DNA from: a virus
Direction: 5' to 3' (one strand)
Length of the DNA stretch: 64,000 nt
IMG/VR virus record: IMGVR_UViG_3300047157_000197
Coordinates: 211,971 to 275,970 of that record
In this document: one piece after another, positions 33,766 through 63,867 of the stretch
Layout of the letters: the number at the start of each line of letters is the position of its first letter
Position numbering within the stretch: position 1 is the stretch's first letter
The notes under the pieces: generated by a model
What the model was told of the DNA's origin: nothing
What the model saw: only the letters and a program-made list of their open reading frames with translations
Databases searched by the model: none
Made by a program: the position numbers and the translations under genes

Positions 33766-34767
33766 ATGGAAAATGCAATAATCTTTACAGGGTGTTCTTA
33801 TACATTCGGAGAAGGGCTTGAATTGTATTCAGATACACCAAAGTGGATAAATCAAAGAAACTACCAAACCCATGATTTTGAATTAAAACAAATTCATGAT
33901 TCGGACGGTACTAACTTTAGGTTAAATAATAATTTTCCATCTATTGTTAGTAAACATTTTAATACCATACCAATACAATCAAATAAAAATGGTGGTAGTT
34001 TCGCATCAAGTCTACGATTTATACGAAAAAACCAAGCCACTATTAAAAAAGAAAAGACTAAAAAAATAGTAAGTATTATATTTCAGTTAAGTTCTTTTAG
34101 TAGAGAACCTTTTCATTTTGATTATTCTTGTGAATGTGATTTATGTGAAGGAACTCTTTGGGCATATTGGGGTGAGTTTTATATGCATTTAGAATATCTT
34201 AGTGATTTAATTTCAAAAAAAACTAATACAGAACAAATAATCAGATTTCAAACATCAATAGATGATAAAAATAGAAATGTAATTATTAAATATTTTTCGG
34301 GTATAATGAAACTAATTTATAATGATTTTGATTATGATTATTTTGTTCAAAAATCATTAGAAAATAAAGAATATTTTTCAACTATAATGGAAACTGTAAT
34401 GGAAAATATTGATGATATTAAAAATAAACAAAACAAAGATGTATTAACTTCACTTCAAGCAACAATAGAAAAATTTGAAAGGGAAATTGCACCTGTATAT
34501 TTTATAGATAGTTGGTGTGAGGATACTTCTAAATTAATTTTTAATAATGAGTTTTATTATAATAAATTAATACGCTTAAAGGGAGATGATGGTAAGTATT
34601 ATAAAAAATGGACAGAATGGGAAAAAACTATAAAGAATAGATTAGTAAAGGATGATTTTCCAAATACACATAATCATCATCCATCGCTACATTCACATCA
34701 ACGTATAGGAGAATCTATAATAGATTTTTTAAATAAAAAACCGTTTTTGGAAATAAAGTATATTTAA
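33766..34767 (+). CDS. SGNH/GDSL-like hydrolase family protein 1
   Basis: 333 residues. The N-terminus IIFTGCSYTFGEGLE carries the G-x-S block with the likely nucleophile Ser, and HNHHPSLHSHQRIGESI near the end carries the HP-x-H block. The insert between them is long and charged with a Cys-x-C-x2-C motif (CECDLCEG). Nine relatives lie at 51414-61610. The family de-acylates or transfers acyl groups, often on sugars. This is an outlying copy next to the cupin gene. Confidence 0.65.
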   Translation: MENAIIFTGCSYTFGEGLELYSDTPKWINQRNYQTHDFELKQIHDSDGTNFRLNNNFPSIVSKHFNTIPIQSNKNGGSFASSLRFIRKNQATIKKEKTKKIVSIIFQLSSFSREPFHFDYSCECDLCEGTLWAYWGEFYMHLEYLSDLISKKTNTEQIIRFQTSIDDKNRNVIIKYFSGIMKLIYNDFDYDYFVQKSLENKEYFSTIMETVMENIDDIKNKQNKDVLTSLQATIEKFEREIAPVYFIDSWCEDTSKLIFNNEFYYNKLIRLKGDDGKYYKKWTEWEKTIKNRLVKDDFPNTHNHHPSLHSHQRIGESIIDFLNKKPFLEIKYI

Positions 34768-42633: not shown

Positions 42634-44262
<1,629 letters not shown>

Positions 44263-47044: not shown

Positions 47045-48402
47045 AATTATTATTAGGAGATTGTATTGACAAACTTAAAGAGTTAGATGACAATAGTGTA
47101 GATAGTATTGTTACAGACCCACCATATGGGTTATCCTTTATGGGTAAAAAATGGGATTATGATGTTCCCTCTCAAGAAATCTTTGAGGAATGTTTAAGAG
47201 TTCTAAAACCAGGTGGCCATCTATTATCATTTGCCGGTTCACGAACTTATCACAGAATGGCAGTTAGAGTAGAAGATGCTGGATTTGAGATAAGAGACCA
47301 GATAATGTGGATATATGGTTCAGGTTTTCCAAAATCTATGAATATAGGAAAAGCTATGGATAAAGTACAAGGTAATGAAAGAAAGGTAATTGGTAAACAA
47401 AACTACTCAATTCCAAAAGCAGATAACACTATACAAGCCAGTTCCTATGGTATAAGTGGAGGTTTATTGAAAGATGGAAAAAAAGCAGAAAGATTAGTAC
47501 CTGATATAACCAAAGGAAACTCTGAATACGAGGGTTGGGGAACTGCTCTCAAACCAGCTCACGAACCAATTGTAATGGCAAGAAAACCACTTTCAGAAAA
47601 AACTGTTGTAGATAATGTATTAGAATGGGGAACTGGTGGAATTAATGTAGAGGAAAGTAGAATACCATATAAATCAAAAGATGATATGGAAATTAGAAAA
47701 AATACACATCGTGAAACAAATAAATTAGGAGATGGTAATTTTGGTGGAGGTAAATATTCACAACCTGTTGAAAGTGGCAGATTTCCTTCAAACATAATCT
47801 TTGATGAAGAAGCAGGTAAGATACTTGATGAACAAAGTGGTATATCCAAATCCACAGGTGGTAGAAGTGGAAACAAAGAAGGAGTTGGTCAAAATGGAAT
47901 ATATGGTCAATATAGTGGAGAAGTAAGAGATGAAAATCCTGGTCTTGGTGATATTGGTGGAGCATCTCGTTTCTTTTATTGTCCTAAAACTTCTAAAACT
48001 GATAGAAACGAAGGATTAGAAGATTTTGAAATAAAACAAACTGTTGGTGGAGGTGGTGGTATAGGTGATTATCAAGATGACGTAAATAGTGCAAGTGGTA
48101 AGTTTGGTAGTGAAAAAGCACCAAGTAAGAACAATCACCCAACAGTCAAACCAACAGATTTGATGTTATACCTTATTCGCTTAGTTACTCCAAAAGGTGG
48201 AACTACTTTAGACCCATTTATGGGTAGTGGTTCAACTGGTAAAGCTGCAACTCGTGGTGGATTTGATTTTATAGGTATTGAAAGAGAAAAAGATTATATG
48301 GAAATTGCAAAAACAAGAATCCAATATGAAAAAGATAATCCTTATAATGAAGAAAAGAAAGAGCGAGTAAAAATAAATAAAAATGCAAATAAATTTTTCT
48401 AG
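47041..48402 (+). CDS. Beta-class DNA methyltransferase, copy 2 (intact)
   Basis: 453 residues. SIVTDPPYGLSFMGKKWDYD is motif IV (DPPY, as in N6-adenine or N4-cytosine enzymes); LDPFMGSGSTGKAATRGGFDF with GIEREKDYMEIAKTRI is motif I and flank. The central variable part (~120-300) is the target-recognition domain. It differs from the paralog at 39461 mainly in this central part, so the two may recognise different sites or are a recent duplication with recombination. No cognate nuclease is nearby: an orphan enzyme probably protecting phage DNA. Confidence 0.88.
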   Translation: MKLLLGDCIDKLKELDDNSVDSIVTDPPYGLSFMGKKWDYDVPSQEIFEECLRVLKPGGHLLSFAGSRTYHRMAVRVEDAGFEIRDQIMWIYGSGFPKSMNIGKAMDKVQGNERKVIGKQNYSIPKADNTIQASSYGISGGLLKDGKKAERLVPDITKGNSEYEGWGTALKPAHEPIVMARKPLSEKTVVDNVLEWGTGGINVEESRIPYKSKDDMEIRKNTHRETNKLGDGNFGGGKYSQPVESGRFPSNIIFDEEAGKILDEQSGISKSTGGRSGNKEGVGQNGIYGQYSGEVRDENPGLGDIGGASRFFYCPKTSKTDRNEGLEDFEIKQTVGGGGGIGDYQDDVNSASGKFGSEKAPSKNNHPTVKPTDLMLYLIRLVTPKGGTTLDPFMGSGSTGKAATRGGFDFIGIEREKDYMEIAKTRIQYEKDNPYNEEKKERVKINKNANKFF

Positions 48403-50061: not shown

Positions 50062-50337
50062 ATGGAAATAAAAAGAAATAGGTATGGTGTAGAAAGAGTT
50101 TATGAAAAGATTGATGAGACTAGAATCAGAATCACAGGTGAATCTTTGCTTACAAGAGGCTCTAACGATGAAAACGGAGTTCAAATGATGTTTGACTTTG
50201 AAGGAGGTCCTTGTTTTACTGTTGGTGGAACTTTGGATTATATGAATACAAAATGGCTAGTCAAATCAATTACTGTTGATACAAATATCAGAGAAGAGAA
50301 TTTAGCATCAGTAGTTTGTGTTGTTGCAATTAAGTAA
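50062..50337 (+). CDS. Small hypothetical beta-rich protein
   Basis: 91 residues from ATG 50062 (a TTG at 50053 would add three). Strands such as YGVERVYEKIDETRIRITGES and MFDFEGGPCFTVGGTLDY. No family is recognised. It lies four bases before the next gene. Confidence 0.5.
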   Translation: MEIKRNRYGVERVYEKIDETRIRITGESLLTRGSNDENGVQMMFDFEGGPCFTVGGTLDYMNTKWLVKSITVDTNIREENLASVVCVVAIK

Positions 50338-50341
50338 CTTG

Positions 50342-50677
50342 ATGAGTTTAGATAGAAAATATAAAGTTAAACATATTTACATAGGAGAGGATGATGTCCA
50401 AGAGTGGACACAAGGTGTTGGAAAATATACTTTAATGCCTTTAATGTTTAGAGGAATTAAAAAAATAATAGAACTTAACTTAAAAAAATATCATTTTGCA
50501 AGAGTTGAATGTGTTATTAGAACAGAAAAAAAGGCATTCGATTTTTATGTAAAAGAAGATGGTATTTGGGATTCTCTTGAAAAAGTAATGGAGTGGGCAA
50601 TTGATGAAGAAGAATACGAAATGTGTTCTGAAATTAAAAAATTAGAAGAACTTTTAGATAAAGATAATACGTTTTGA
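50342..50677 (+). CDS. Small protein with UVR-like C-terminus
   Basis: 111 residues from ATG 50342. The N-terminal part is beta/alpha (KYKVKHIYIGEDDVQEW). The C-terminal helix pair DEEEYEMCSEIKKLEELLDK resembles the UVR/UvrB-C interaction motif. The proteins at 34802 and 60421 carry similar short helices. Function is unknown. Confidence 0.48.
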   Translation: MSLDRKYKVKHIYIGEDDVQEWTQGVGKYTLMPLMFRGIKKIIELNLKKYHFARVECVIRTEKKAFDFYVKEDGIWDSLEKVMEWAIDEEEYEMCSEIKKLEELLDKDNTF

Positions 50678-51417
50678 AAATATTAGTTATAGGAGATAGT
50701 TGTACAGATGTTTTTGTATATGGTAGTTGTGATAGGTTATGTCCTGAAGCACCAATACCTGTATTCAAACCATCAAAAACCATAACCAACCAAGGTATGG
50801 CTGGAAACGTTGTTGATAACCTCAGAGCATTAGGAGTTAGAAAAACTGAACTAATCACTAACAACGAACAAATCATAAAAACAAGATATGTAGAAACTAA
50901 ATCAAACCAAATGCTACTTAGAGTAGATGGTAATGATAAAGTTTCTAATTCATTTGATTATCGTAAGGTAGATTTTGATTCATATGATGCAGTAATTGTA
51001 TCTGATTATGATAAAGGATATCTAACGTATAAAGATATTGGTGAAATTGGTAAAAAATCTAAACTATCTTTTATTGATACTAAAAAAACAATAGGTAGTG
51101 GAGATTACTTCAAAGATTATACATTTGTAAAAATGAATGAAGAAGAATGGGATAATTGTGTTTCAAAAGGTGCAATTTATTCAGATTGGAAGAATAATTT
51201 AATTGTAACTATGTCTGAAAGAGGATGTATGTATGATGAGAAAAGATATCCGGTTGATAATACAATTGAAGTAAGAGATTTGAGTGGTGCAGGTGATACT
51301 TGGATGGCATCATTTGTAATGAAATATGTAGAAACTTCAAATATTGATACATCAATAATATTTGCAAATGATAATGCAACAATAGTAGTACAAAAAAGAG
51401 GTGTAACAACAATATGA
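50674..51417 (+). CDS. PfkB-family sugar kinase, HldE-N-like
   Basis: 247 residues from TTG 50674 (overlaps the upstream stop by 4). ILVIGDSCTDVFVYG with RLCPEAPIPVF is the RfaE/HldE-type start, NQGMAGNVVDNLRALG the substrate-binding Gly motif, and VRDLSGAGDTWMASFVMKY the catalytic GAGD motif with the base Asp. HldE-N phosphorylates heptose-7-phosphate. It is somewhat short (about 310 expected), lacking part of the middle. With cytidylyl- or nucleotidyltransferase genes elsewhere in the window, it could make an activated heptose-like sugar. Confidence 0.8.
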   Translation: MKILVIGDSCTDVFVYGSCDRLCPEAPIPVFKPSKTITNQGMAGNVVDNLRALGVRKTELITNNEQIIKTRYVETKSNQMLLRVDGNDKVSNSFDYRKVDFDSYDAVIVSDYDKGYLTYKDIGEIGKKSKLSFIDTKKTIGSGDYFKDYTFVKMNEEEWDNCVSKGAIYSDWKNNLIVTMSERGCMYDEKRYPVDNTIEVRDLSGAGDTWMASFVMKYVETSNIDTSIIFANDNATIVVQKRGVTTI

Positions 51418-52217
51418 TAAAAGAAATAATTTGTATAGGAACTTCTTTTACAGAAGGGTCTGGATTAAATCCAAAAGGTAAAAAAGATGTAAACCAAGCT
51501 GTAAAATGGTATAAAGAAAATAAAAATATTACAATAAAATCACTGTCAGAATACTCCTGGCCAAATGTTCTATCTGAACTATTAGATATAAAAGTAAGAA
51601 ATTTAGGTAAATGTGGTTCAAGTATAGAATATCTTATGAGAACTCTTGAAGAAATACTTGAAACCGAAGATTACTCAAATAAATTATTTATCTTAGAATA
51701 CTCTAGTTGGGGTAGAAGTGAATTATGGTCATCAGAATATAATCAATGGATAGTTGCAAATTGGGGACATAAAAATGGAGATGAACCATCAGATGGATAT
51801 GCTACTATGCTTTCTACTGATTATAATTTCGGAGAACAATTACCTCATTCAGAAATAAATTTTTATGATGAATTTTTAAATAAATTTTTTAATGAAAAAG
51901 AATTTTTAAAACAAAGAGATAGACATTTCTTAAACTTATTATATAAACTTAAATCTAAAAATATTAAATATCAAGTACTTCTATTAGAGAATTGTTTCTT
52001 AAATGAACTAGAATCTAATCCATTGTTTAACAATAAAGATTTAGATTTTAAAATAGATAATAAGCATTGTGATTTATGGGGATTTGTAGAAAAGAAGGGT
52101 TGGACACTAACTGCAGAAACAAACGGAAAAATAAAGGATGACCACCCATCAATTTCAGGACATCGATTTCTAGCTGAAGAACTTGCAAGAAAATTAAAAG
52201 TAGTTAATAACATATAA
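51414..52217 (+). CDS. SGNH/GDSL-like hydrolase family protein 2
   Basis: 267 residues. EIICIGTSFTEGSGLNPKG carries the first-block Ser, NLGKCGSSIEYL the Gly-block, FILEYSSWGRSEL a strand before the third block, and KIKDDHPSISGHRFLAEELA the D-x-H/HPS-GH end block. No signal peptide, so it acts in the cytosol. It starts at the sugar kinase stop (ATGA). Confidence 0.68.
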   Translation: MIKEIICIGTSFTEGSGLNPKGKKDVNQAVKWYKENKNITIKSLSEYSWPNVLSELLDIKVRNLGKCGSSIEYLMRTLEEILETEDYSNKLFILEYSSWGRSELWSSEYNQWIVANWGHKNGDEPSDGYATMLSTDYNFGEQLPHSEINFYDEFLNKFFNEKEFLKQRDRHFLNLLYKLKSKNIKYQVLLLENCFLNELESNPLFNNKDLDFKIDNKHCDLWGFVEKKGWTLTAETNGKIKDDHPSISGHRFLAEELARKLKVVNNI

Positions 52218-52219
52218 AG

Positions 52220-52615
52220 ATGAGAAAATACTTACCAACATTAGGAGAATTGATTGATAGATTATCAATCGTTCAGTTAAAAGAAGTGAAGATTCCACAA
52301 CATAAAGAGGAATATGCACAAGAAATATTAGAAATAGTACACGATATTAACGAAATCCTTAATGATAAACCAAAAGTAGATGGAGAATTTATCAGAGCAA
52401 TAGTTGTACTATCTCAGATGAATACACATATTTGGTACAATGAGGATAATGCAAGGAGTGGTGATGATGTAGGAAATAAATTAATGTTAACACATGGTTT
52501 AAATGGAATCAGAAATACTGCCAAAAATAAAATACAAGAATTAGATGGTGGTAGAAAAGATTACAAGATAGATTGTATTGCTGATGAATTTAATGATTGG
52601 GATGTATCGTGGTAA
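52220..52615 (+). CDS. DUF4254-like protein
   Basis: 131 residues, all-helical. LGELIDRLSIVQLKEVKI and MNTHIWYNEDNARSGDDV resemble the helix-rich DUF4254 family, which occurs beside glycosyltransferases and in phages. It lies between two SGNH genes. Function is unknown. Confidence 0.55.
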   Translation: MRKYLPTLGELIDRLSIVQLKEVKIPQHKEEYAQEILEIVHDINEILNDKPKVDGEFIRAIVVLSQMNTHIWYNEDNARSGDDVGNKLMLTHGLNGIRNTAKNKIQELDGGRKDYKIDCIADEFNDWDVSW

Positions 52616-53220
52616 AAAATAAACTTTGGAGATTTGGAGATTCATATTCTTTAACTTCAAAAGATTTTAATCATATTGAACAAAATCATTCGACTTATAT
52701 AGCTGAACATTTTAATTTAGAATTAGTTCATCTTGGTCAAGGTGGGTTATCTAATTTAGAAATATTTAACAAAATTTTATCTAATAGTCAAAAATACAAA
52801 AAAGGTGATATGTTACTAATTAATTTTGCATCACGAAGTAGATTTGCAATTGTAGAAAACGATGAAATTATAAAAATAAATGGAGGAGAAACTGATATGA
52901 ATAATCAAACGATTAGAAATGGTGTTTTGAGTAATTTAGTAATTCCTATATCGGATATAATTTTCTATTTAATTAAACCCTTTTTAGAATTATTAATTAA
53001 AAAAGGAATTAGAGTTTATCATTTTTATAACGATGTTGACAGAGAAGATGGACTTGTTTCAACAAAAATTAAAAATGAATTAATTTTTGATGTAAACGTA
53101 GGGTTCATTCAATGGATAAGTGATAATGGGTATGAAGATTTATCACCAAATGGAAATATACATTATTTAGTTGGTAAACAAAAAGAAATTGCAGAAGAAA
53201 TAATCAACAAAATTAGTTAA
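52609..53220 (+). CDS. SGNH-like protein 3
   Basis: 203 residues from GTG 52609 (an in-frame ATG at 52597 is possible). KLWRFGDSYSLTSKDF gives the GDS block, LGQGGLSNLEIFNK the Gly block, MLLINFASRSRF the third strand, and SPNGNIHYLVGKQKEIAEEI the weak His block (one His only). Shortest of the group; the degenerate end block may mean altered activity. Confidence 0.58.
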   Translation: MVKNKLWRFGDSYSLTSKDFNHIEQNHSTYIAEHFNLELVHLGQGGLSNLEIFNKILSNSQKYKKGDMLLINFASRSRFAIVENDEIIKINGGETDMNNQTIRNGVLSNLVIPISDIIFYLIKPFLELLIKKGIRVYHFYNDVDREDGLVSTKIKNELIFDVNVGFIQWISDNGYEDLSPNGNIHYLVGKQKEIAEEIINKIS

Positions 53221-54066
53221 ATGGAAATAACAAACAAATTACATATATTTGGCTGTTCACATTCAACAGGTATACACAGAGAAGATAATAACAAACCATT
53301 TTGGGCAGACTACATTGCTCAAAATTTAGGATTGGAAAGATTCCCAAGAATTGGACACTCAGGTAAAAATGTTGAGTATATTTTATTTGATATATTTGAT
53401 AGAATATTAAATAATGATATTTCAAAATCAGATATTGTTATTTTAAACACATCTTACCCACTTAGATTTGGTACCCCAAGATTACAAAACTATAATAAAA
53501 ATCCTATGGATTATGATTTTGATTATGAAAAAATTTTAGGAATAAAAGACTATGAATCTTTTGATGAGTTAGATACAAGCTTGACATTTAATCTTTGGTA
53601 TCATCAAACTTTTGGAGCTTGGAAACTTTTAAATTCTATATGTGATAATGTTTATCAATGGTGTGTAATTGATGTAAATGAGATTGATAAAACCTTTCAG
53701 GATCTACAATACAAGTTACATAATTCAGAAATTCCAAAACGTAGTAATAAACTTTCTTTTTTAGAAGATGCTTCTTTATATCTAAATAATTCTGGTGAAT
53801 CTAATACCAGCTGGAAGAGAGGTGATTCATTAAGAAAATATCGTATGTCTCGTATGTCAAGAACAATAACAGCTCCTAAAGATGCACCGCTAAATCCTTG
53901 GAATAATTTAGTAAAATGTCCAAATAATTATAAGGATTGGGATAGTTATATTGAGTTAAATCAACATCCAAAGGGACATCTAAATAATACTGATAAACTT
54001 CATAAAGACTTTGCAAAACAATTTATAAACACAATAAACCAAAATGAAAATAAAAGATTATTATAA
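53221..54066 (+). CDS. SGNH-like protein 4
   Basis: 281 residues starting right after the previous stop. KLHIFGCSHSTGIHRED has the G-x-S block, RIGHSGKNVEYIL the second, VILNTSYPLRFGTP the third, and ELNQHPKGHLNNTDKLHKDFA the HP-x-GH block. Soluble. It overlaps the DUF962-like gene by 23 bases. Confidence 0.62.
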   Translation: MEITNKLHIFGCSHSTGIHREDNNKPFWADYIAQNLGLERFPRIGHSGKNVEYILFDIFDRILNNDISKSDIVILNTSYPLRFGTPRLQNYNKNPMDYDFDYEKILGIKDYESFDELDTSLTFNLWYHQTFGAWKLLNSICDNVYQWCVIDVNEIDKTFQDLQYKLHNSEIPKRSNKLSFLEDASLYLNNSGESNTSWKRGDSLRKYRMSRMSRTITAPKDAPLNPWNNLVKCPNNYKDWDSYIELNQHPKGHLNNTDKLHKDFAKQFINTINQNENKRLL

Positions 54067-54337
54067 GATGTATCTATCGTTACATCAAAACAAGAATTGT
54101 ATCAGATTACATTTCTTAGGACAATGGGTAACTTTGATAAGTGCCTTTTTGATATTTTATCATTGGTTATGGTATCTAATACCAATTATACCATTTATTA
54201 TATATCCATTTGCATGGAGTGGTCATTATCTATTTGAAAAGAATGAACCCGCTGCATTCAAAGACCCATGGAAAGCAAAACTTTCCGATTGGATAATGTT
54301 TTTAGATATATTACGAGGAAAAGTAAAAATATTTTAA
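54044..54337 (+). CDS. DUF962/Mpo1-like membrane protein
   Basis: 97 residues with two or three helices. YLSLHQNKNCIRLHFLGQW and YPFAWSGHYLFEKNEPAAFKDPW match the DUF962 (YGL010w/Mpo1) pattern with conserved His residues (H-x3-N...H, SGH, E-x-N-x-P). Yeast Mpo1 is an iron-dependent 2-hydroxy fatty acid dioxygenase. In a phage it might alter membrane lipids or glycolipid precursors. Confidence 0.72.
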   Translation: MKIKDYYKMYLSLHQNKNCIRLHFLGQWVTLISAFLIFYHWLWYLIPIIPFIIYPFAWSGHYLFEKNEPAAFKDPWKAKLSDWIMFLDILRGKVKIF

Positions 54338-55278
54338 TGAGTGGCAACAAAACTTTAGTTGTAATAGGATGTAGTTTAACATTTGGTCAAGATGTTAAAT
54401 ACGAAGAAACTTGGGGTTATTTATTAGCAAAAGAACTTGGGTTGGATTACTTAAATCTTGGTTGTGGTGGAACTGGTTGGTATTATGTTGAGGAAGTAGT
54501 AAAAACATTTGTTTTAGAAAACCAAGAAAATATAGATGATTACTTATTCGTTATCCAAAAATCAGAATTCAATAGAAGACCAAATTATGAAGAAATTTCA
54601 TTTATACCAACAGAAAATAAAAATCTAAAGAAATATAATATAAATTTAATACCTAGGATTGCCTATGAATTTATAGGTCCAAAAGAAGGTGTTAGAAGTT
54701 GTGAACCTATTCATCACTTCAATAAAGATAGTTGGATTCATGATTTTAATATACCAAACCACAGAGTAAACCCTAATCATAGAAATGCATGGTGGGTTGA
54801 TGTAAATAAGGATGGTAAGAAATCTCCACATCCAAAAACAGATAGTATGGTTGAATCTTTACTTACGCATTGGGGATATTCTATATTTGGATTACATAAG
54901 TTTTTGAAAGAATTTAATGTAAATCATATACTTGTAGATGGTTATTTTCCAATCTTATCGTGTAAAATGAATTTTAAAAAATACGATTGTTTTAGTGAAG
55001 ATGAGTTTGAACTAACACAAGATTTTTGGAGTTCTAATCCAATGAAAAATGATGAAGATGAAATACTTCTCGTGAAGCATGATAATCCAAAATTAATAAG
55101 TATAATCGATAAAATAGATATTAAAAATAAAATAGATGATGTTGTTCTTTGGAGTACATTCTTTTGGAAGGGACATAATACTGAATATAATATTGATGGA
55201 GGACACCCTGGTCCAAAAGGACATATTAATATAAAAAATGTTATACTAGAAAATATCAAACAAAAAGGATTGGCATGA
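54337..55278 (+). CDS. SGNH/GDSL-like protein 5
   Basis: 313 residues from ATG 54337, which overlaps the preceding TAA. LVVIGCSLTFGQDVKYEETW, LNLGCGGTGWYYVEE, YLFVIQKSEFNRRP and DGGHPGPKGHINIKNVI are the four blocks in order. The Ser (GCS), Gly, (Q/N-like) and His blocks are all visible. The long insert before the last block is charged. Confidence 0.68.
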   Translation: MSGNKTLVVIGCSLTFGQDVKYEETWGYLLAKELGLDYLNLGCGGTGWYYVEEVVKTFVLENQENIDDYLFVIQKSEFNRRPNYEEISFIPTENKNLKKYNINLIPRIAYEFIGPKEGVRSCEPIHHFNKDSWIHDFNIPNHRVNPNHRNAWWVDVNKDGKKSPHPKTDSMVESLLTHWGYSIFGLHKFLKEFNVNHILVDGYFPILSCKMNFKKYDCFSEDEFELTQDFWSSNPMKNDEDEILLVKHDNPKLISIIDKIDIKNKIDDVVLWSTFFWKGHNTEYNIDGGHPGPKGHINIKNVILENIKQKGLA

Positions 55279-56195
55279 AATATATCATAAATACAGGTTG
55301 TAGTTATGGAGTAATGTTTCGTTCCATGAAAGAGTTTACAAAAGGAAACGATACTGATTTTAAAGTAATTGATTTGCATTGTGATTCATTTGGTGCAGAA
55401 TATCAAAAAAGAAGTGTAGTTTATACTGTTTCTAAATTATTATGGGATGGTGTATTACCTGATAATATATTTGTAATAATAGAATGGTCTCAACCAAATA
55501 GATTATTTACAGAAATACCAAATGAATTATGTAAAGATATTTTAAATGATTCGGATAATATTGAAGGTACTTTTATTTTAGATAATAAATTTAATTTAAA
55601 AGAAAAAACTAATCAATTAATTGGAAAATGGAAATCATTAAATGTTATTATTGGTAATAAAGTTTACACAAACCCAGATGTTGATGATTTAACCTATTTT
55701 GAAAATAAAGAAATAGAATGGTATCTAAGTGAATATAAAAATAATTGTCACATATCACATAAACCAATAGATAGATATGAGCATTATTTACAATGTATTG
55801 TAGATACTCAAAGTTTTTTAACCTCATTAAATATAGAACACATTTCATTCTTAATGAATGATACATTTACAGATTTAAAAAGTAAATCAGATTATTTAAA
55901 AAATATTTGGAATTGTGTTGATTTAACTAAATTTGTATTTCATAATAGGTTTGGTGGAATTGATGAGTTTGCAATGGAAAAATTTGGTAACATTTCTTAT
56001 CTAAGTGGAGCAAATGAATGGGATATACCACCAGATGGTAATATGATGGAATTTGGTAATCATCCACATGATTCTGTATATATAGATTTCTTTGAACAAT
56101 ATATTTATATTAAAGGTAAAAAGTATTTTGGAAACCTAACATTTGATTATACGGATAGGTGGTTAAAAACAAAACATAATGCAATTAGGTTATGA
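55275..56195 (+). CDS. SGNH-like protein 6
   Basis: 306 residues. YIINTGCSYGVMFRSMKEF starts the fold; VIIEWSQPNRLFTEIP is the third-block strand shared with the proteins at 56972 and 59578 (W-(S/T)-x-P-x-R); MEFGNHPHDSVYIDFFEQ the His block. Coupled by ATGA on both sides. Confidence 0.6.
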   Translation: MKYIINTGCSYGVMFRSMKEFTKGNDTDFKVIDLHCDSFGAEYQKRSVVYTVSKLLWDGVLPDNIFVIIEWSQPNRLFTEIPNELCKDILNDSDNIEGTFILDNKFNLKEKTNQLIGKWKSLNVIIGNKVYTNPDVDDLTYFENKEIEWYLSEYKNNCHISHKPIDRYEHYLQCIVDTQSFLTSLNIEHISFLMNDTFTDLKSKSDYLKNIWNCVDLTKFVFHNRFGGIDEFAMEKFGNISYLSGANEWDIPPDGNMMEFGNHPHDSVYIDFFEQYIYIKGKKYFGNLTFDYTDRWLKTKHNAIRL

Positions 56196-56971
56196 TAAAT
56201 AAAAAATCAGAGTGGAATCAAACAAAATCCGATTGGGGATTTGGAAGAATAAAACTTGATAATTTTCTTGACGAAAAAACTGTACACCAATTATATGAAG
56301 AATGTAAGAATGCACCAAAAGGTGGATGGACTGTATTTACTCGTGCTGGTTCTCGTATGGAAGAATTTAATGATTTAATTTCATTACCAACTGCACATAG
56401 AGTAACCTATGATATAATGCATAGTGGAGAGTTCTTATATGAATTAGAACAATTGACAGGTATTGTAGGATTATTACCAGACCCTCATTTAGTTGGAGCA
56501 GGATATTCAATAATCCGAAATGGAAAAGATTTAGGTTGTCATTATGATTTCAATTGGAATGATAGAATTCGATTACATAGAAAACTAACATCACTACTAT
56601 ATATTACACCAGATTGGAAAAATGAGTGGGGAGGACATATTCAGTATTATGATGATAATATTGATATAAATCCAAAATCAAATCTTATAGAATCAGTTTC
56701 ACCAAAGTTTAACCGATTGGTAATTAATGAAAATGTAAAACATGCACCATACCATAGAGTAAGTTCGGTAAACGCACCAAATGATATTCCAAGATGTGCA
56801 ATCAGATTTTTCTATTATATTTCTACATCAGAATATGATAAGGATAACCCACCACATAGAAGTACATACAAAACAAACGAATACGAACATCACAAATTAC
56901 ATGAAGAAGAAAATTGGGATGGACACTTTGTAGGAAAAGGTGGTGAAGATTATGGATATAACTCAAAATAA
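56192..56971 (+). CDS. 2-oxoglutarate/Fe(II) oxygenase
   Basis: 259 residues. GCHYDFNWNDRIRLHRKLTSLLYI gives the H-x-D metal pair, WGGHIQYYDDN a core strand, and PYHRVSSVNAP with RCAIRFFYYIS the distal His and the 2OG-binding Arg. This is a full canonical set (proline/sugar hydroxylase-like, 2OG-FeII_Oxy_3 type). It sits within the SGNH array and may hydroxylate a sugar, lipid or virion protein. Confidence 0.78.
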   Translation: MINKKSEWNQTKSDWGFGRIKLDNFLDEKTVHQLYEECKNAPKGGWTVFTRAGSRMEEFNDLISLPTAHRVTYDIMHSGEFLYELEQLTGIVGLLPDPHLVGAGYSIIRNGKDLGCHYDFNWNDRIRLHRKLTSLLYITPDWKNEWGGHIQYYDDNIDINPKSNLIESVSPKFNRLVINENVKHAPYHRVSSVNAPNDIPRCAIRFFYYISTSEYDKDNPPHRSTYKTNEYEHHKLHEEENWDGHFVGKGGEDYGYNSK

Positions 56972-57898
56972 ATGAAATATGTACTAACATCAGGTTGTTC
57001 TTTTACTAATAATGTAAGATTAAATCCTAATAATTTAAAAGAAGAAGATTCTAGTAGATTCTCATGGCCTTATTATTTACAAAAAGAATTAGGAAAAGAA
57101 TATGAGGTTTTAAATTATGGTGGTGCAACTAATGATAATGTAAGTTTATGTAGAATCTTTTTTTACCATACAAAAAGATTAATAAAAGAAGGAGTAAATC
57201 CAAAAGATATTATAATAATTGGACAATGGTCAGACCCTAATAGAGAATCTATTTGGATTAAATCTAAGTTCACAGAAGAAGATAGAGAAAAATATGGTCA
57301 CACCTTAGTTTATACACCAACCTGGGAAAAGGAAAATGGTTTCTTTTATTTAACAGGTGGATTTTCTCCACCAGATGGTGAAGATTCTGCACTTAAAAAA
57401 TATGGTATTGAAAACGCAATTAAATATTGGGAAGCAGATATCAATTGGAATAATATTTTAAATCAAGTTTTACATTGGTTAGAATCTTGGTCACATCTTG
57501 AAAGATATTGTAAAGAAACCCAAGTAAATACATATTGGATGAGTATGAGAAACCCTTATTCAGTTGAATCATATGAGTGTTGGTTTGGTGCACCCGAAAA
57601 CGATTCAACCATTCCTACAAAAAATTTATGGTTTGAGAAATATGAAATATTAAAACCATATATTGATGAATTACCAATTAATAAATCAAATCACTGGCAT
57701 TACAAAAACTATAATGGATTATTAGAATGGACAATTGATAATATTCAAGAAGGAGTTCCTTATTTTCAAGAATCAAGTGGAAAATATTTGAGTTGGGAAG
57801 ATTATAAAAAAGAAATCCACGAATATGGTTGGGGTCACCCATCACCACAAATGATGGAAAAGTTTGTAAAAGAAGAACTTATAAACATAATTAGATGA
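56972..57898 (+). CDS. SGNH-like protein 7
   Basis: 308 residues, starting at the base after the oxygenase stop. YVLTSGCSFTNNVRLNPNN, LNYGGATNDNVSLCR, IIIGQWSDPNRESIW and YGWGHPSPQMMEKFVKEEL are the block equivalents, with Ser, Asn and His in place. It overlaps the truncated aminotransferase by four bases. Confidence 0.65.
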   Translation: MKYVLTSGCSFTNNVRLNPNNLKEEDSSRFSWPYYLQKELGKEYEVLNYGGATNDNVSLCRIFFYHTKRLIKEGVNPKDIIIIGQWSDPNRESIWIKSKFTEEDREKYGHTLVYTPTWEKENGFFYLTGGFSPPDGEDSALKKYGIENAIKYWEADINWNNILNQVLHWLESWSHLERYCKETQVNTYWMSMRNPYSVESYECWFGAPENDSTIPTKNLWFEKYEILKPYIDELPINKSNHWHYKNYNGLLEWTIDNIQEGVPYFQESSGKYLSWEDYKKEIHEYGWGHPSPQMMEKFVKEELINIIR

Positions 57899-58533
57899 AA
57901 GAATATAATATAAATGACCCTTGGGATTGGGTAACTACTTTTGAAAATGAAGTTGCAGAATATACTGGTTACAGATATGGTATCGCATGTGATTCTAATT
58001 CTAACGCGATACGATTATGTTTACATTATTTAAACATTACAGATACCGATATAGAAATACCAGCAAATACATATGTATCAGTTCCTAATCAAATTATATT
58101 AAGTGGTAACAGACCACAATTTAGAGATATAAAATGGAAAGGATTATATCCAATTGGAGATACAAGTATCATTGATTCTGCAACTGCATTCTATGAAGGA
58201 ATGGGTAGAGGATATGAAGATAAATTTATGATTTTATCGTTTCATTTAAAAAAGATTTTAAATATTGGACAAGGTGGAATGATACTTACAAATCGAGATG
58301 ATTTTAATGAGTGGGCAAGACCCATGATTTACGATGGGAGACATAAGGATAAATTATATAAAGAAGATGAATTTGAGTGTATCGGTTGGCATATGTATAT
58401 GAGTCCTGAATCTGCTGAAAAAGGATTAAGAATATTTAATTCAGATAAAATACAACAATTTAACGAACCATGTGGCTCATCAGAAATGTATGGAGATTTA
58501 AGAAAACAGAAAATATACCAAGATTATGTCTAA
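57895..58533 (+). CDS. Truncated DegT/DnrJ/EryC1 aminotransferase-like protein
   Basis: 212 residues, about half of the family length. YRYGIACDSNSNAIRLCLHYL is the phosphate-binding start, IEIPANTYVSVPNQI and TSIIDSATAFYEGMG the middle (the pyridine-binding Asp), and FHLKKILNIGQGGMILTN carries the PLP lysine. The C-terminal domain is missing. Similar short forms exist in phages; activity without the C-terminal domain is unclear. Confidence 0.72.
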   Translation: MKEYNINDPWDWVTTFENEVAEYTGYRYGIACDSNSNAIRLCLHYLNITDTDIEIPANTYVSVPNQIILSGNRPQFRDIKWKGLYPIGDTSIIDSATAFYEGMGRGYEDKFMILSFHLKKILNIGQGGMILTNRDDFNEWARPMIYDGRHKDKLYKEDEFECIGWHMYMSPESAEKGLRIFNSDKIQQFNEPCGSSEMYGDLRKQKIYQDYV

Positions 58534-59581
58534 AAAGAAAATAAATAGAATTTTTTTACTTGGTGATTCTTGGATTGAAGGACAAGGTACCTATTCAGTT
58601 ATACACAAAGACGGCACACTAGATGAACCTTCAATGCCTTTTGATAATACTGGTTTTGGTGGAATTAATGAGTGGAGACGAGAAAATAGTTGGAATAAAT
58701 TTTTTAGAGAAGAGTATGGAGATGATATTGATATTATAAATCTAGGTAGACAAGGAGCAGATAATAAATCAATGTTTAGTAAATTAAACTATATTTTAAG
58801 TTATGATTACCAAGAGACTGATTTAATTTTATTTGGGTTCACTTCAAAATATAGAGATTATAATATAAACCACTGCTTTGGTAAAGAAAACTTAGATAAT
58901 TGGAGAAATGATGATGAAAGAAAAACCCAAGGACAAAAACACAATGAGAATTCTTTTCTATTACATAAATCAAATCCCATTATCAAATGTCCTATTTCCT
59001 ATGAAAGATTACAAATAGCACAACAACTTTTAAAAAAGAATAATGAGAAAAACTTATTTTTAGGAAAAGAGGACTTTTATGAATCAGATGAAATTCCTGA
59101 AGCTGAAAAAGAATTTTCAAGAAAATGGTTACAAGATTTTTTTGTTGAAATATTTGATGAGAGGGTTTATGAAAATATAGCATCAACAAATTATATGTTT
59201 TATCAAAAATATTGTAAATGGAAAGGAATTAATATTTTATTCTTTGATTTGTTTGAACCATATGTAGACTCAAAATTTCCAAATGAATTCTACAACGTAG
59301 ACACAGAAATGTATATCAACTATGGTAAAAAACATTTTAGAGATATTTTAGTAGATTATGAATTTGAAAATTATAGTTTTGATGCACCATATTCGGTATG
59401 GGAATGTGGACATACGTTTCCATCTTTAAACTCAAACCATTGGTATAAAAAAGGAGAAAAGTATTCTGGTCTAATATATCATCCAAATCAACATGGTTAT
59501 AAAGCGTTATTTGATTATTTAGTAGAAAATCATCTTAATAAAGGATATGAAATAAAACCAAAAATAAAAGATATTATATGA
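58526..59581 (+). CDS. SGNH/GDSL-like protein 8
   Basis: 351 residues, the largest of the group. IFLLGDSWIEGQGTYSV is a classical GDS block, INLGRQGADNKSMFSK the Gly block, LILFGFTSKYRDYN the third, and LIYHPNQHGYKALFDYL the HP-x-HG block. A second Trp/Cys-rich part (SVWECGHTFPSL) precedes the end. Confidence 0.68.
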   Translation: MSKKKINRIFLLGDSWIEGQGTYSVIHKDGTLDEPSMPFDNTGFGGINEWRRENSWNKFFREEYGDDIDIINLGRQGADNKSMFSKLNYILSYDYQETDLILFGFTSKYRDYNINHCFGKENLDNWRNDDERKTQGQKHNENSFLLHKSNPIIKCPISYERLQIAQQLLKKNNEKNLFLGKEDFYESDEIPEAEKEFSRKWLQDFFVEIFDERVYENIASTNYMFYQKYCKWKGINILFFDLFEPYVDSKFPNEFYNVDTEMYINYGKKHFRDILVDYEFENYSFDAPYSVWECGHTFPSLNSNHWYKKGEKYSGLIYHPNQHGYKALFDYLVENHLNKGYEIKPKIKDII

Positions 59582-60300
59582 AAACATTTTATTCAAATGG
59601 TGATTCAGTAGTTTGGGGAGCAGAACTAGAAAATAAACAAACAGAAAGATATTCATCAATTGTGAGTAATTTGTTTAATTGGGTAGATTGTAATAATGCA
59701 TCTGCGGGTGTTTCAAATGATTATATTTTCAGACAGACTATGAGAGATGTTTCACATTGGTTAGATACAAAAAAATGTTGGAGTGAAGAAACTGGTTGGG
59801 TAAAAAGTGATGAACTTTTTGTTTGTATTGGTTGGACATCACCAACAAGATTTGAATGGTGGACAGGAAAAGAATATCAACAAGAAAGATTATGGGCAGG
59901 ATATGATAAGTGGGGAGATAATGATAATAATAGAACCACCGAAGATGATTTCGTTTTAAATCAAACAGAAGATATACCGTCTTACATAAAAACATTGAAT
60001 CAAATAATATCATTGGGTAGTTTTTTACAAGTAAATAATATACCATATTGTTTTTACAATGTATTCTATGATTTTAAAACTTTAAAAGAACCAAAAAAAC
60101 AAATTGATAAGTTTGGTAGAAAAACACACCAAACCTCTTTAAAATCACTATGGAAGCAAATTCCTAATTTTAATGATATATCAATGTACAATTATTTAAA
60201 AACAAATGGGGGAACGTTTTTACCAAGAAAACACCCAACCAAAGAATCTCATATTAAATGGGGGAACTATTTATATAAAAGAATTAGTAATGGCCTGTAA
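59578..60300 (+). CDS. SGNH-like protein 9
   Basis: 240 residues. TFYSNGDSVVWGAELE (GDS block), NNASAGVSNDYIFR (Gly/Asn block), FVCIGWTSPTRFEWW (third block, W-T-x-P-x-R) and RKHPTKESHIKWGNYL (HP-x-H block). Several Trp suggest a carbohydrate ligand. Confidence 0.65.
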   Translation: MKTFYSNGDSVVWGAELENKQTERYSSIVSNLFNWVDCNNASAGVSNDYIFRQTMRDVSHWLDTKKCWSEETGWVKSDELFVCIGWTSPTRFEWWTGKEYQQERLWAGYDKWGDNDNNRTTEDDFVLNQTEDIPSYIKTLNQIISLGSFLQVNNIPYCFYNVFYDFKTLKEPKKQIDKFGRKTHQTSLKSLWKQIPNFNDISMYNYLKTNGGTFLPRKHPTKESHIKWGNYLYKRISNGL

Positions 60301-60421
60301 GAAAAAACCAAAAACAATTTTAGAAAAACGATTAGAAAAAAACCTTTCCAAAAAGGAATTAGAGGAGTTTTACAAACGAGCTGCTCATAATAATCATTTT
60401 AACGAAATATTCAATAGATAA
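60290..60421 (+). CDS. Tiny basic helical protein
   Basis: 43 residues from ATG 60290 (overlaps the SGNH gene by 11). CKKKPKTILEKRLEKNLSKKEL, then FYKRAAHNNHF. Its stop and the next start share a base. Function is unknown. Confidence 0.45.
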   Translation: MACKKKPKTILEKRLEKNLSKKELEEFYKRAAHNNHFNEIFNR

Positions 60422-60666
60422 TGACACCTCAAGAGTATTATTACAAATACGTTAGAAAAGATAATAAAACCCTTTACGAAATGCGGATAAAATCCCTCGC
60501 GTGGATGTTAGATTGTTTTGAAAAGGGAACCATACGAAAACGAACAATTGTAACTCTTATACCATTATCAGAATTAATAACCCTCTTAGAGTGGTTAGAA
60601 GAACGAGAAAGATATGAAGAATGTCATACAGTTAAAACAGTAATTGAAAAAATATATGAAAATTAA
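60421..60666 (+). CDS. Small helical hypothetical protein
   Basis: 81 residues, all helical, with a UVR-like ending (LEWLEERERYEECHTVKTVI) similar in character to the protein at 50342. Function is unknown. Confidence 0.48.
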   Translation: MTPQEYYYKYVRKDNKTLYEMRIKSLAWMLDCFEKGTIRKRTIVTLIPLSELITLLEWLEERERYEECHTVKTVIEKIYEN

Positions 60667-60880
60667 TAAAAACACGCAACACATGGAATTTTACACAAAC
60701 AACCCAAGAAATCTTCACACTCCTATTAAAAAAGGAAAACTTACGAAAAAACAAAGGAACAAAGAGATAATTTTTAATTTAGAATCTACTATTAATTTTG
60801 AAAAATCCAAAATAGGTGGTGGTAATAAAGAATTGATTGAAAAATTTCAAAACAAATTAAATCAAAAGCTAAAAGGATAG
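60656..60880 (+). CDS. Small basic hypothetical protein
   Basis: 74 residues from ATG 60656, or 65 from ATG 60683; no ribosome-binding site decides. Lys/Asn-rich and soluble. No family is recognised. Confidence 0.42.
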   Translation: MKINKNTQHMEFYTNNPRNLHTPIKKGKLTKKQRNKEIIFNLESTINFEKSKIGGGNKELIEKFQNKLNQKLKG

Positions 60881-60884
60881 TAGA

Positions 60885-61610
60885 ATGAAACCTACTAAAT
60901 TAAATTCAATTCTATTTTTAGGAGATTCGTTTACATGGGGACAGGGATTACAATATTATCATCTAATAGAAAACGAAGGTTGGGATTGGAAAAAATGTTC
61001 TAATTTTTTAGAAAGTAGAGAAAGATTTGAAAACCTTGGATATGGAGCAGATGAATATAGAAGAATAAATTCATTCCCTAACCTTGTATGTAAAGAACTC
61101 AATTGTAGACCAATCATTCCTCAACAAGAAAATGGTGGAGATAATTCTAGAATTATAGATATCTTAGAACAAATACATCTATTTGTTACCTCAAATGTAT
61201 TAGATTGTATCATTGTTCAGTTTTCTATACCCTCACGAATAAACGATACGAGATACCAACAATTTAATAATATAGATGAGATAATCATTTCAGAGATAGA
61301 AAGAATAAATGAGTTTTCAAACAAAAATAATATACCATGGTTTGGATTTTCATGGACAAAAGAGGTAGGTAGTATATTAGAGACTCAATATAAAGAAAAT
61401 TACATCCCTATCCAATATGATAATAAAGAATGGAATTATTTTAACATTGAACATCATCCACCAAGTTTTCCATTTAAAAAACTCGTTATAGCAGGAAACA
61501 AGAAAATAAAAGATTTTCATCCTAATTTAGAAGGACACAAAGTTATAAAGAATTCCATTATTAACAAACTAACACGAGTTCGACCCCCTTTTGAACTTAT
61601 AGGGAACTAA
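60885..61610 (+). CDS. SGNH/GDSL-like protein 10
   Basis: 241 residues. ILFLGDSFTWGQGLQYY is a strong GDS block, GGDNSRIIDILEQ the second, CIIVQFSIPSRIND the third, and IKDFHPNLEGHKVIKNSI a classical D-x-H...GH end block, making this the most canonical copy. It closes the third glycan-type cluster. Confidence 0.72.
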   Translation: MKPTKLNSILFLGDSFTWGQGLQYYHLIENEGWDWKKCSNFLESRERFENLGYGADEYRRINSFPNLVCKELNCRPIIPQQENGGDNSRIIDILEQIHLFVTSNVLDCIIVQFSIPSRINDTRYQQFNNIDEIIISEIERINEFSNKNNIPWFGFSWTKEVGSILETQYKENYIPIQYDNKEWNYFNIEHHPPSFPFKKLVIAGNKKIKDFHPNLEGHKVIKNSIINKLTRVRPPFELIGN

Positions 61611-61873: not shown

Positions 61874-62014
61874 ATGAAACAATGTAGAAAATGTAATATA
61901 GAATTACAAGTATTTAATCCTTCAAGTGGACGATATTATATTTGTGGTAAATGTAATGATGTAACTTATCCTACCGAAGATATAGATAAGGTAGTAGAAA
62001 GAGGAAGAGATTAA
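61874..62014 (+). CDS. Small zinc-ribbon protein
   Basis: 46 residues. CRKCNIELQVF and CGKCNDVTYP are two CxxC knuckles of a zinc ribbon, as in many small phage proteins that bind nucleic acid. Last gene before 850 bases of noncoding DNA. Confidence 0.58.
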   Translation: MKQCRKCNIELQVFNPSSGRYYICGKCNDVTYPTEDIDKVVERGRD

Positions 62015-62520
62015 CTAACCCTATATACATAATACCCTATATACAGGTATACCGAATCCCACTACCGCATACTCTATACTCCCATACTCCCATACCAACA
62101 GTACCCCTACTCCAGACTCAACCCCAAACCCTTTCCCCCATAATAACCAAAACGATAACACCCTCGAACTCCCGATACTCACCTAAAACTTTCCCTATAA
62201 CTCTCTCTATTCCAATGTGTTAAATGGGGTAAAAGGGGGAGCTGTGAAAGTACGAGGTTTTTAATCCTTTTTAAGAGGTCTGAGATTGAATCCGTACCAA
62301 GATATTACACCCTACCCTAATTAACCACTATACCCTCTTATATGGAGTGTACAAGGGAGTTGGGAGTGCACATACTCACTATGGGGTTGAATATTACACC
62401 CTATGTCATATTATGATATGATGTAGTTCCCACTTTCTACCACCCGATACCACTATATCACTATGGAGAGGAGCCTCAAGCGTATGTGTTGTTGGAGGTT
62501 ATTTTTTTCCGGAGTAACTA

Positions 62521-62533
62521 TGACACATTGTCA
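62521..62533 (+). promoter_or_regulatory. Operator-like palindrome TGACA-N3-TGTCA
   Basis: TGACACATTGTCA inside the longer shared string ACTATGACACATTGTCA. First of three copies within 160 bases. Confidence 0.55.
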
Positions 62534-62542
62534 CACCCCCTA

Positions 62543-62574
62543 CTTGGGACTCAATTGCATTATTCGTAATTCTA
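62543..62574 (+). promoter_or_regulatory. Weak class I promoter-like site
   Basis: CTTGGG (62543-62548), 18 bases, TAATTCTA (62567-62574). The second box is a poor match. The palindrome at 62580 would lie at the transcription start, as expected for a repressor site. Confidence 0.3.
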
Positions 62575-62579
62575 CACTA

Positions 62580-62592
62580 TGACACCTTGTCA
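62580..62592 (+). promoter_or_regulatory. Operator-like palindrome TGACA-N3-TGTCA
   Basis: TGACACCTTGTCA, with the same upstream ACTA as the copies at 62521 and 62667. Confidence 0.55.
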
Positions 62593-62666
62593 CCCGATTA
62601 TGGATTATTTAAAATATTGGAATAAACCGCCCATTTCATTGTCATATTCGTAAATCGATGATACTA

Positions 62667-62679
62667 TGACACATTGTCA
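62667..62679 (+). promoter_or_regulatory. Operator-like palindrome TGACA-N3-TGTCA
   Basis: TGACACATTGTCA, ending nine bases upstream of the class I promoter at 62689, a position fitting an activator or repressor site. Confidence 0.55.
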
Positions 62680-62688
62680 TGAGATTTA

Positions 62689-62720
62689 TTTGTTTATTTA
62701 AAAAAATTGTCGTATCTTTA
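62689..62720 (+). promoter_or_regulatory. Class I promoter
   Basis: TTTGTT (62689-62694), 18 bases, TATCTTTA (62713-62720). The G-rich stretch that follows to ~62800 has no convincing gene; it contains inverted CAGTA...TACTG and may be a leader RNA for the gene at 62861. Confidence 0.5.
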
Positions 62721-62819
62721 GGGTGGTTGTGGGTGGGAGTGTACACATCAGTATATAGGGGTCACCAGCGGCACTGGAGTACTGGAGTGGAAAATAAATT
62801 AAAAATAAGTCCTAAATTG

Positions 62820-62851
62820 TTTGGTAGTCTCAGTTATTTTTCGTATATTAG
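62820..62851 (+). promoter_or_regulatory. Class I promoter
   Basis: TTTGGT (62820-62825), 18 bases, TATATTAG (62844-62851), nine bases before the ATG at 62861; the message would have almost no leader. Confidence 0.65.
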
Positions 62852-62860
62852 TCATGTAAT

Positions 62861-63079
62861 ATGACTGATATGAGAGATATAAAGAAATTAGTTCCCTATA
62901 TAGGGTTAGGTGTAGTGATTGCCATTATACTGTTGTTGGTACCGATGATTATTCGAGGTTTTTTCGCGATATTGTTACTTTTGATGAAAAATCCACTTGA
63001 ATTCCTTATTGGAACCACGATTTTGCTCCTGTGTATGTATATAGGGGAGAAGATAATAAATAAACCATTAAATAAATAA
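62861..63079 (+). CDS. Small membrane protein
   Basis: 72 residues with two long helices (YIGLGVVIAIILLLVPMII and FLIGTTILLLCMYIGEKII). ATG 62870 is an alternative start that leaves more room for initiation. It is under a class I promoter in the operator-rich region. Function is unknown. Confidence 0.52.
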   Translation: MTDMRDIKKLVPYIGLGVVIAIILLLVPMIIRGFFAILLLLMKNPLEFLIGTTILLLCMYIGEKIINKPLNK

Positions 63080-63082
63080 AAC

Positions 63083-63415
63083 ATGAGAAACATTACCAAA
63101 ATCCTCGACAGAAGTCAGAGGTTATTCCTAGCTGGGAATATGAAAAAGAGTTATTCTATCGCGATTGATGGGATTACCGAACTATCCCAAGTAAACAGAA
63201 GATTAAACGAAGAAACCCAAGGTTGGGATTTAAAGAAAGCGTACGATTACAAGGGTACTTACAAGATTCAAGGTAAAACTCTTACCAATTGGATGGAGAA
63301 ATTATGGACAATAGTTGAAAATACTGGAGTTGAACCGATTGTAGAGGAGTATGAAACTGATATGATTCAGTACAGTATAGATAATACACAGACGTTAGTA
63401 AAGAATAGAAAATAA
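63083..63415 (+). CDS. Hypothetical soluble protein
   Basis: 110 residues. NITKILDRSQRLFLAGNMKKSYSIA, then GWDLKKAYDYKGTYKIQG and an acidic helical end. No family is recognised. Follows the membrane protein by three bases; noncoding DNA begins after it. Confidence 0.55.
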   Translation: MRNITKILDRSQRLFLAGNMKKSYSIAIDGITELSQVNRRLNEETQGWDLKKAYDYKGTYKIQGKTLTNWMEKLWTIVENTGVEPIVEEYETDMIQYSIDNTQTLVKNRK

Positions 63416-63426
63416 TTCTAATTTTA

Positions 63427-63458
63427 TTAGGATATATCAAATAAATTTTGTATATTAG
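63427..63458 (+). promoter_or_regulatory. Class I promoter of the structured RNA
   Basis: TTAGGA (63427-63432), 18 bases, TATATTAG (63451-63458). No start codon with a usable frame follows, so the product is probably an RNA ending at the terminator at 63791. Confidence 0.72.
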
Positions 63459-63464
63459 CCCCTG

Positions 63465-63828
63465 TAGTTGAGGTTGATGATTGAGAATATAGGGTTTGAT
63501 TCCCTCTCTAGTTAATCTCTAAAGACCTCCTCTTAATAGAATTAGAGGCCGTCAGTAGTGTTGGGAGATACACCTACTATAAAAACTGAATCTCTTTTAA
63601 AGAAATGTGAGCTGTTGGTGGTATTTTCTCACTCTAAACAACGAACCACCACATATAACGATGATGAGTCACAGGCGATGAAATGATACTACGCTCGGAA
63701 TCGAATTTCATCCACAGATTAGGGGTTTTCTGTGGAGATTAATAGGAGCCAACTCAACTCTCTCCTATCCTAAGTGTTCAATCTGAACCACCCACTAAGT
63801 TATGGCTTCCTTCTTAGTGGGTTTTTTT
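63465..63828 (+). ncRNA. Structured noncoding RNA, ~365 nt, unknown class
   Basis: Between a class I promoter and a perfect terminator lies a stretch with no gene but many perfect stems: AGGG/CCCT (63491-63505, 7-base loop), CCTC-TAAT/ATTA-GAGG (63529-63548), AGTAG/CTACT (63554-63578), GTGAG/CTCAC (63607-63632), GATGAAA/TTTCATC (63677-63712), TCCACAG/CTGTGGA (63711-63736) and ATAGGAG/CTCCTAT (63742-63768). The loop TGGTGGT (63616-63622) can pair with ACCACCA (63645-63651), a possible pseudoknot. Known conserved cores of RNase P RNA, tmRNA and SRP RNA were not found. The 5' end is set about 7 bases after the promoter box. Confidence 0.62.
63791..63828 (+). terminator. Rho-independent terminator
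   Basis: CCCACTAAG (63791-63799) pairs perfectly with CTTAGTGGG (63813-63821), followed by seven T (63822-63828). The clearest terminator in the window. Confidence 0.9.
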
Positions 63829-63854
63829 ATTCCCTATACTCTGGAGCGGGAACA

Positions 63855-63867
63855 TGACATAATGTCA
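63855..63867 (+). promoter_or_regulatory. Operator-like palindrome TGACA-N3-TGTCA
   Basis: TGACATAATGTCA, between the terminator and the promoter at 63933. Confidence 0.5.

Follow-up and report, generated by a model that had tools for sequence, protein, structure and literature searches.

Enzymes of the SGNH/GDSL superfamily, such as TesA, the CE2 acetyl xylan esterases and a Bacteroides lipase (3bzw), have a common fold with a block I G-x-S motif on the first strand and a late catalytic His ahead of the last helix. Two variants of the site are relevant here: in the O-acetyltransferase PatB1, an extracytoplasmic enzyme of cell-wall glycan, the side chain of a block II Arg replaces the block III Asn as the oxyanion-hole donor, while in CE2 enzymes Ser-His dyads without the Asp are active (PMC9487903). 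Here we describe ten divergent SGNH-like genes, most of them packed in a single gene run, in a 64,000-nucleotide stretch of DNA (further called the window; positions 211,971–275,970) of the IMG/VR virus record IMGVR_UViG_3300047157_000197, which is 275,970 bp long in full. The record is assigned to a tailed phage by its gene content, as PHROGs identified genes for a terminase large subunit and for the major head protein (phrog_138, 9.1e-71). Genes are named below by their start position in the window, unless marked as contig positions.

The closest phage systems described so far are the lipopolysaccharide and polysaccharide clusters of jumbo phages, cyanophages among them, which combine genes for PfkB kinase, nucleotidyltransferases, cupin, 2-oxoglutarate (2OG) oxygenase, epimerases and carbamoyltransferase, are polymorphic between relatives and have been read as glycan-tailoring systems or, more widely, as systems for surface glycans or metabolites, with SGNH, GDSL or esterase never mentioned (PMC7824862). 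Part of such a set was identified here by Pfam (kinase, nucleotidyltransferases, cupin and DegT, with a dehydratase in relatives). The Moraphages, large aquatic phages of Bacteroidota with predicted Flavobacteriia hosts and core glycosyltransferases, resemble the present phage by description, and SGNH or GDSL are not mentioned for them either (PMC12619734). A literature search found neither a paper naming DUF6071, a family without assigned function that includes one of the ten proteins, nor one describing this SGNH array. Sugar genes are abundant in phages and their purpose is guessed; about ten genes of one fold, swapped between close relatives amid stable neighbours, offer a handle on cluster function.

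A single divergent family

All ten open reading frames (ORFs) listed in the original prediction were found at their positions, with two start corrections: 52609 is a GTG internal to ORF 52597, and 54337 an internal ATG of ORF 54268. Each protein carries G[CDT]S in its N-terminal region and nine also have HP close to the C-terminus, the exception being 52609. Of the remaining ORFs of the record, 187 are 150 aa or longer; five of these had G[CDT]S within the first 30 residues and none combined it with HP near the end, by which a chance origin of the motif pair was rejected. The proteins are indeed very different from one another, as had been claimed, the best within-genome matches being 24–33% identical and mostly partial. 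Two further copies are located elsewhere in the 276-kb record (contig 5188–6072 and 23206–23934), which brings the family to a total of 12 copies in this phage.

Iterated profile searches (E ≤ 1e-4) were started from each of the ten seeds against 1,877 distinct ORFs from 118 loci. The final sets comprised 79–90 proteins with pairwise overlaps of 71–88 and a union of 91 phage proteins. Since ten seeds converged on largely the same ~91 proteins, all ten window proteins are, on profile homology, members of one superfamily, a divergent phage clade of the SGNH/GDSL-fold superfamily. This convergence could be aided by the common block I motif, and family membership itself selects for block I, making its conservation partly built in; residues far from block I, i.e. 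the Arg and His discussed below, therefore matter most.

Pfam, PHROGs, NCBIfam and PADLOC gave a name to none of the ten proteins except 59578, which belongs to DUF6071 (PF19547) with 36.9 bits against a gathering cut-off of 27, while the other nine fell below it (56972 with 13.5 bits). The same model was matched by 20 of 44 relatives at E ≤ 0.01. With the anti-phage defence models of PADLOC, no match (E ≤ 0.01) was obtained for any of the proteins. Profile A7 gave a molybdopterin-factor match over a short stretch, which we discounted as a likely artefact. Searches among cultured phages produced zero matches with 56972 and 60885 and a single weak partial match with 59578, and those among bacterial genomes zero matches with the 59578 group and one contig (L148) with the 60885 group. 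The latter is filed as a Flavobacteriales metagenome-assembled genome, has phage-like genes, including two family members and a homolog of the 131-aa partner protein (Table 1), and is probably phage DNA; as a relative occurring in such a contig it makes a Bacteroidota host plausible. Two family members were much longer, one of 695 aa (L026, 1119–3206), in which no Pfam domain was found, and one of 533 aa (L172, 9995–11596); they are possible fusions.

The AlphaFold2 model of 59578, built from a 44-sequence alignment, had a predicted local distance difference test score (pLDDT) of 85.8 and a predicted template modelling score (pTM) of 0.87. Its Foldseek comparison with the PDB returned 20 SGNH/GDSL matches at E ≤ 0.001 (best 9e-5, prob 1.00), including SGNH esterases, TesA and CE2, so that the model clearly places this protein in the SGNH/GDSL fold. 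Most of its matches among viral structures were proteins without a name from uncultured Caudovirales, and some carried the label SGNH_hydrolase. The model of 56972 was of similar quality (pLDDT 87.4, pTM 0.89) and its list was also topped by SGNH esterases, at E 0.018–0.1 with none below 0.001; with a best value of 0.018, the same fold is predicted more weakly and leans on sequence homology. The structural check named in the original prediction, an SGNH fold with aligned Ser and His, thus gave a positive outcome in the two of ten proteins modelled.

Active-site residues

Residues were counted in an alignment of 88 family members. Four positions were nearly invariant: the block I Gly (87), the block I Ser of G-x-S (86, and all ten window copies), an Arg (86) and the late His (88), while nearly all other positions were variable, which argues for a maintained active site. 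The block II Gly was present in 56 of 88, the remainder having mostly Ser, Thr or Ala.

The rest of the signature departs from the canonical one. Block III, GxND in canonical enzymes, appears as [WF][ST]xxxR without the Asn, and 83 of 87 sequences have a Ser or Thr four residues before the invariant Arg. In the model of 59578, strand 79–86 stops just before Thr87, at the place where canonical SGNH proteins carry GxND; a Ser/Thr thus appears, from the models, to stand at the block III Asn position, with the Arg four residues later. In block V the His is invariant, while the Asp three residues before it, as in canonical enzymes, was found in only 13 of 88 (54337 being the window copy with DxxH) and an Asp two residues before it in 23 of 88. 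The term SGNH-like therefore holds for the fold of the two modelled members and for the homology of all ten, and not for the catalytic signature: judging from the alignment, the family has no block III Asn and in most members no block V Asp, with an invariant Arg instead, a feature that the original prediction had overlooked.

The block I Ser lies at median residue 11 and within the first 20 residues in 76 of 87 proteins, leaving most members no room for a signal peptide, and none is apparent in the sequences.

Gene run and its conservation in related phages

Fourteen co-directional genes occupy positions 50318–60300 with gaps of 0–2 bases and overlaps of up to 23, i.e. in operon-like packing (Table 1). 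Eight of the ten window family members are inside this run, while 60885 is separated from its downstream end by a gap and 33766 lies 17 kb upstream. The description as a tandem array is correct in the sense that the genes, with other enzymes in between, are co-directional and overlap or abut; the two copies outside the run lie apart. The predicted neighbours (sugar kinase, 2OG oxygenase, aminotransferase-like and DUF962-like proteins) were all identified by Pfam. The aminotransferase-like protein, truncated according to the original prediction, is short; its length of 207–229 aa in all ten related contigs indicates a stable short form, and a decayed aminotransferase was rejected.

Table 1. Members of the SGNH-fold family in the window and the other enzymes and proteins of the gene run.
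Position	Strand	Product	Remarks
33766..34767	+	SGNH-fold family member, 333 aa	in final sets of all ten seed profiles; Ser11, Arg113, His305
50674..51417	+	PfkB-type sugar kinase	first enzyme of run; PF00294 1.4e-12; phrog_8133 2.1e-76
51414..52217	+	SGNH-fold family member, 267 aa	Lipase_GDSL E 0.0015 (below cut-off); Ser11, Arg101, His244
52220..52615	+	conserved partner protein, 131 aa	weak DUF4254 similarity (PF14063 E 0.001, below cut-off)
52609..53220	+	SGNH-fold family member, 203 aa	GTG start; variant block III, without HP
53221..54066	+	SGNH-fold family member, 281 aa	recovered by 3/10 profiles; one of two weakest members
54044..54337	+	Mpo1-like (ex-DUF962) protein, 97 aa	PF06127 2.6e-26
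54337..55278	+	SGNH-fold family member, 313 aa	DxxH kept; orthologs in 6 other contigs
55275..56195	+	SGNH-fold family member, 306 aa	group of 14 across phages
56192..56971	+	2OG-Fe(II) oxygenase, 259 aa	PF13640 6.9e-14; 26 viral loci at 63–90%
56972..57898	+	SGNH-fold family member, 308 aa	modelled (AlphaFold2); group of 10 across phages
57895..58533	+	short DegT/DnrJ/EryC1-like protein, 212 aa	PF01041 5.3e-19
58526..59581	+	SGNH-fold family member, 351 aa	recovered by 5/10 profiles
59578..60300	+	SGNH-fold family member, 240 aa, DUF6071	modelled (AlphaFold2); most widely conserved copy
60885..61610	+	SGNH-fold family member, 241 aa	just downstream of gene run

Ten related contigs were compared; they had been picked from the loci of the 2OG-oxygenase query for holding several copies, which makes the sample not blind and the presence of the 2OG gene a matter of construction. 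The 131-aa protein (69–89%), the short DegT-like protein and the 59578 ortholog were present in all ten, 56972 in eight and, within the fetched stretches, the kinase in six, while the other SGNH genes varied. The nearest relative (L020) lacked 51414 to 54337 with the flanks kept at 77–90%. The gene scaffold is thus conserved, and SGNH genes are gained and lost around the core ones. One or two copies each were found in five other fetched loci (L016, L019, L029, L031 and L037), meaning that the rich array is not universal. Neighbours in relatives included GDP-mannose dehydratase, carbamoyltransferase and radical SAM genes, and in more distant contigs family members stood among epimerase-like and nucleotidyltransferase-like genes, named by eye from sequence. 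Apart from SGNH genes themselves, the commonest neighbours of family members (18, spread over 12 loci) are relatives of a 361-aa window protein (29638–30723) without a Pfam or PHROG match.

Elsewhere in the record Pfam identified an adenosine 5'-phosphosulfate (APS) kinase, a fusion of haloacid dehalogenase (HAD) and nucleotidyltransferase domains, cytidylyltransferases, a cupin, a full-length DegT protein and a methyltransferase. In the fusion, a HAD phosphatase and a sugar nucleotidyltransferase form one 460-aa protein (346–1728). The APS-kinase-like gene (PF01583) and a possible sulfotransferase gene, recognized by eye and without a Pfam match (26017–26490 and 41582–42085), hint at sulfated products.

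Possible function

The sugar-enzyme setting, the maintained Ser and His and the absence of export signals lead us to infer acyl transfer or hydrolysis on a glycan in the cytoplasm. We propose, with moderate confidence, that the family members act in the cytoplasm as O-acyltransferases or esterases and tailor, in the infected cell, a sugar or glycan precursor produced by enzymes of the phage. The acyl esterases or transferases tailoring a polymer that the original prediction had envisaged are in accordance with this neighbourhood, and their activity stays a proposal. The block I Ser would attack the acyl donor with the late His as the base, and the invariant Arg of the block III loop may stabilize the oxyanion in place of the missing Asn, the same idea as in PatB1-type O-acetyltransferases; alternatively, it may bind an acidic group of the substrate or donor. 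The family differs from PatB1 in the position of this Arg, after the block III strand rather than in block II, and in having no apparent export signal, and thus does not belong to the PatB1 type. Each copy might have its own acceptor or position, and gain or loss of copies would then alter the final glycan, either on the host surface or on the virion. If active, the Ser-Arg-His site would be an unusual oxyanion-hole solution for the SGNH superfamily and would suggest acyl chemistry in the cytoplasm of the infected cell; DUF6071 would, if this is true, gain a function. It is a bolder and rather unlikely version of the proposal that the locus is a combinatorial glycan-tailoring system, in which the kinase, the 131-aa protein, the 2OG oxygenase, the short DegT-like protein and SGNH protein 59578 form a constant core, and a variable complement of some ten serine acyl-enzymes in the cytoplasm, with a Ser-Arg-His site that would be new, determines by its combination the glycan type of the phage or its host.

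Several points weigh against tailoring of a glycan precursor in the cytoplasm. The SGNH O-acyltransferases of surface glycans discussed in the literature consulted are extracytoplasmic and have a membrane partner, for which no systematic search was made here; the candidate glycosyltransferases of the window (ORFs 4239–8084) had no Pfam match; the models cover 59578 and 56972, with the other eight proteins assigned by homology; the block III equivalence is based on strand order in the models and not on superposed coordinates; and the 2OG oxygenase and radical SAM genes would equally fit small-molecule or nucleobase chemistry. The last point leads to the best surviving alternative, in which the substrate is a small molecule, a hypermodified nucleobase or a lipid, and the run builds a secondary metabolite or modified nucleotide whose intermediates are acylated or deacylated by the SGNH proteins. 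The family is accompanied by genes for 2OG oxygenase, a short protein of the pyridoxal phosphate type, radical SAM and carbamoyltransferase, the Mpo1-like protein (PF06127) hints at lipid chemistry, and a secondary-metabolite reading has been offered for similar cyanophage clusters (PMC7824862). The kinase, nucleotidyltransferases, GDP-mannose dehydratase, epimerases and cupins are, however, enzymes of sugar nucleotides, and a dozen copies are many for a single metabolite, which makes this alternative improbable, if still worth considering.

Virion-borne or released esterases, deacylating the host surface polysaccharide at adsorption like the SGNH domains known in phage tail proteins, would explain why the copies differ as expected of receptor-directed enzymes, and a tail-associated lysin and tail fibres were among the weak matches. 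Such a role seems quite unlikely, because most copies are proteins of 200–350 aa without an attached fibre or adhesin domain, show no apparent signal peptide and are encoded among metabolic enzymes, distant from the head and tail modules. Even less probable are catalytically dead SGNH-fold binders for sugar or nucleotide sensing: loss of the block III Asn and of most block V Asp would be expected of them, but the Ser and His are retained in nearly all of the 88 very divergent sequences, and Asp-less dyads are active in CE2 enzymes (PMC9487903).

Copy number and evolution

Two related records of 287 and 289 kb contained at least ten and eleven family copies, respectively, as counted with one profile, with split matches counted once and ORFs from the seed-profile sets added. 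Six more distant kinase-bearing records had zero copies at E ≤ 0.001 with one profile. Orthologs in other phages reached 90% identity for 55275, 71% for 56972 and 69% for 59578. The tree did not join any two of this genome's copies in a clade, though its bootstrap support had yet to settle and several long branches, 51414 and 52609 among them, remained unplaced. The lineage-specific expansion suggested in the original prediction, i.e. recent duplication within this phage, might be expected from the high copy number, and a true recent pair does exist in a relative (L015, 10704 and 11893, sisters at 100/100), but as the source of the present set it was rejected from the tree and is highly improbable, since the copies, with the placement of 51414 and 52609 as a limit, fall into separate lineages and several are closer to orthologs in other phages than to each other. 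That copies come and go while the surrounding gene order is kept is compatible with the arms-race pressure also suggested there.

Additional features of the record

An exact terminal repeat was searched for at the record ends and not found. The ends overlap inexactly (contig 4–2024 against window 61,905–64,000, 96–99% identity by BLAST), as if a circular genome had been closed imperfectly or two variants had been assembled; in a genome circularized through this overlap, the family member at contig 5188 would be located ~3 kb past the window end. The window also contains two near-identical DNA methyltransferase-like genes, one intact (47041–48402) and the other (39461–40811) split into two ORFs (39461–40132 and 40254–40811). 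A single protein encoded at 12578–14353 combines a signal-like start, a long Gly/Ser/Asp/Glu repeat tract and a C-terminal domain, with overlapping frames remaining open across the repeat, and a phage-encoded GroEL-like chaperonin is located at 42646–44262.

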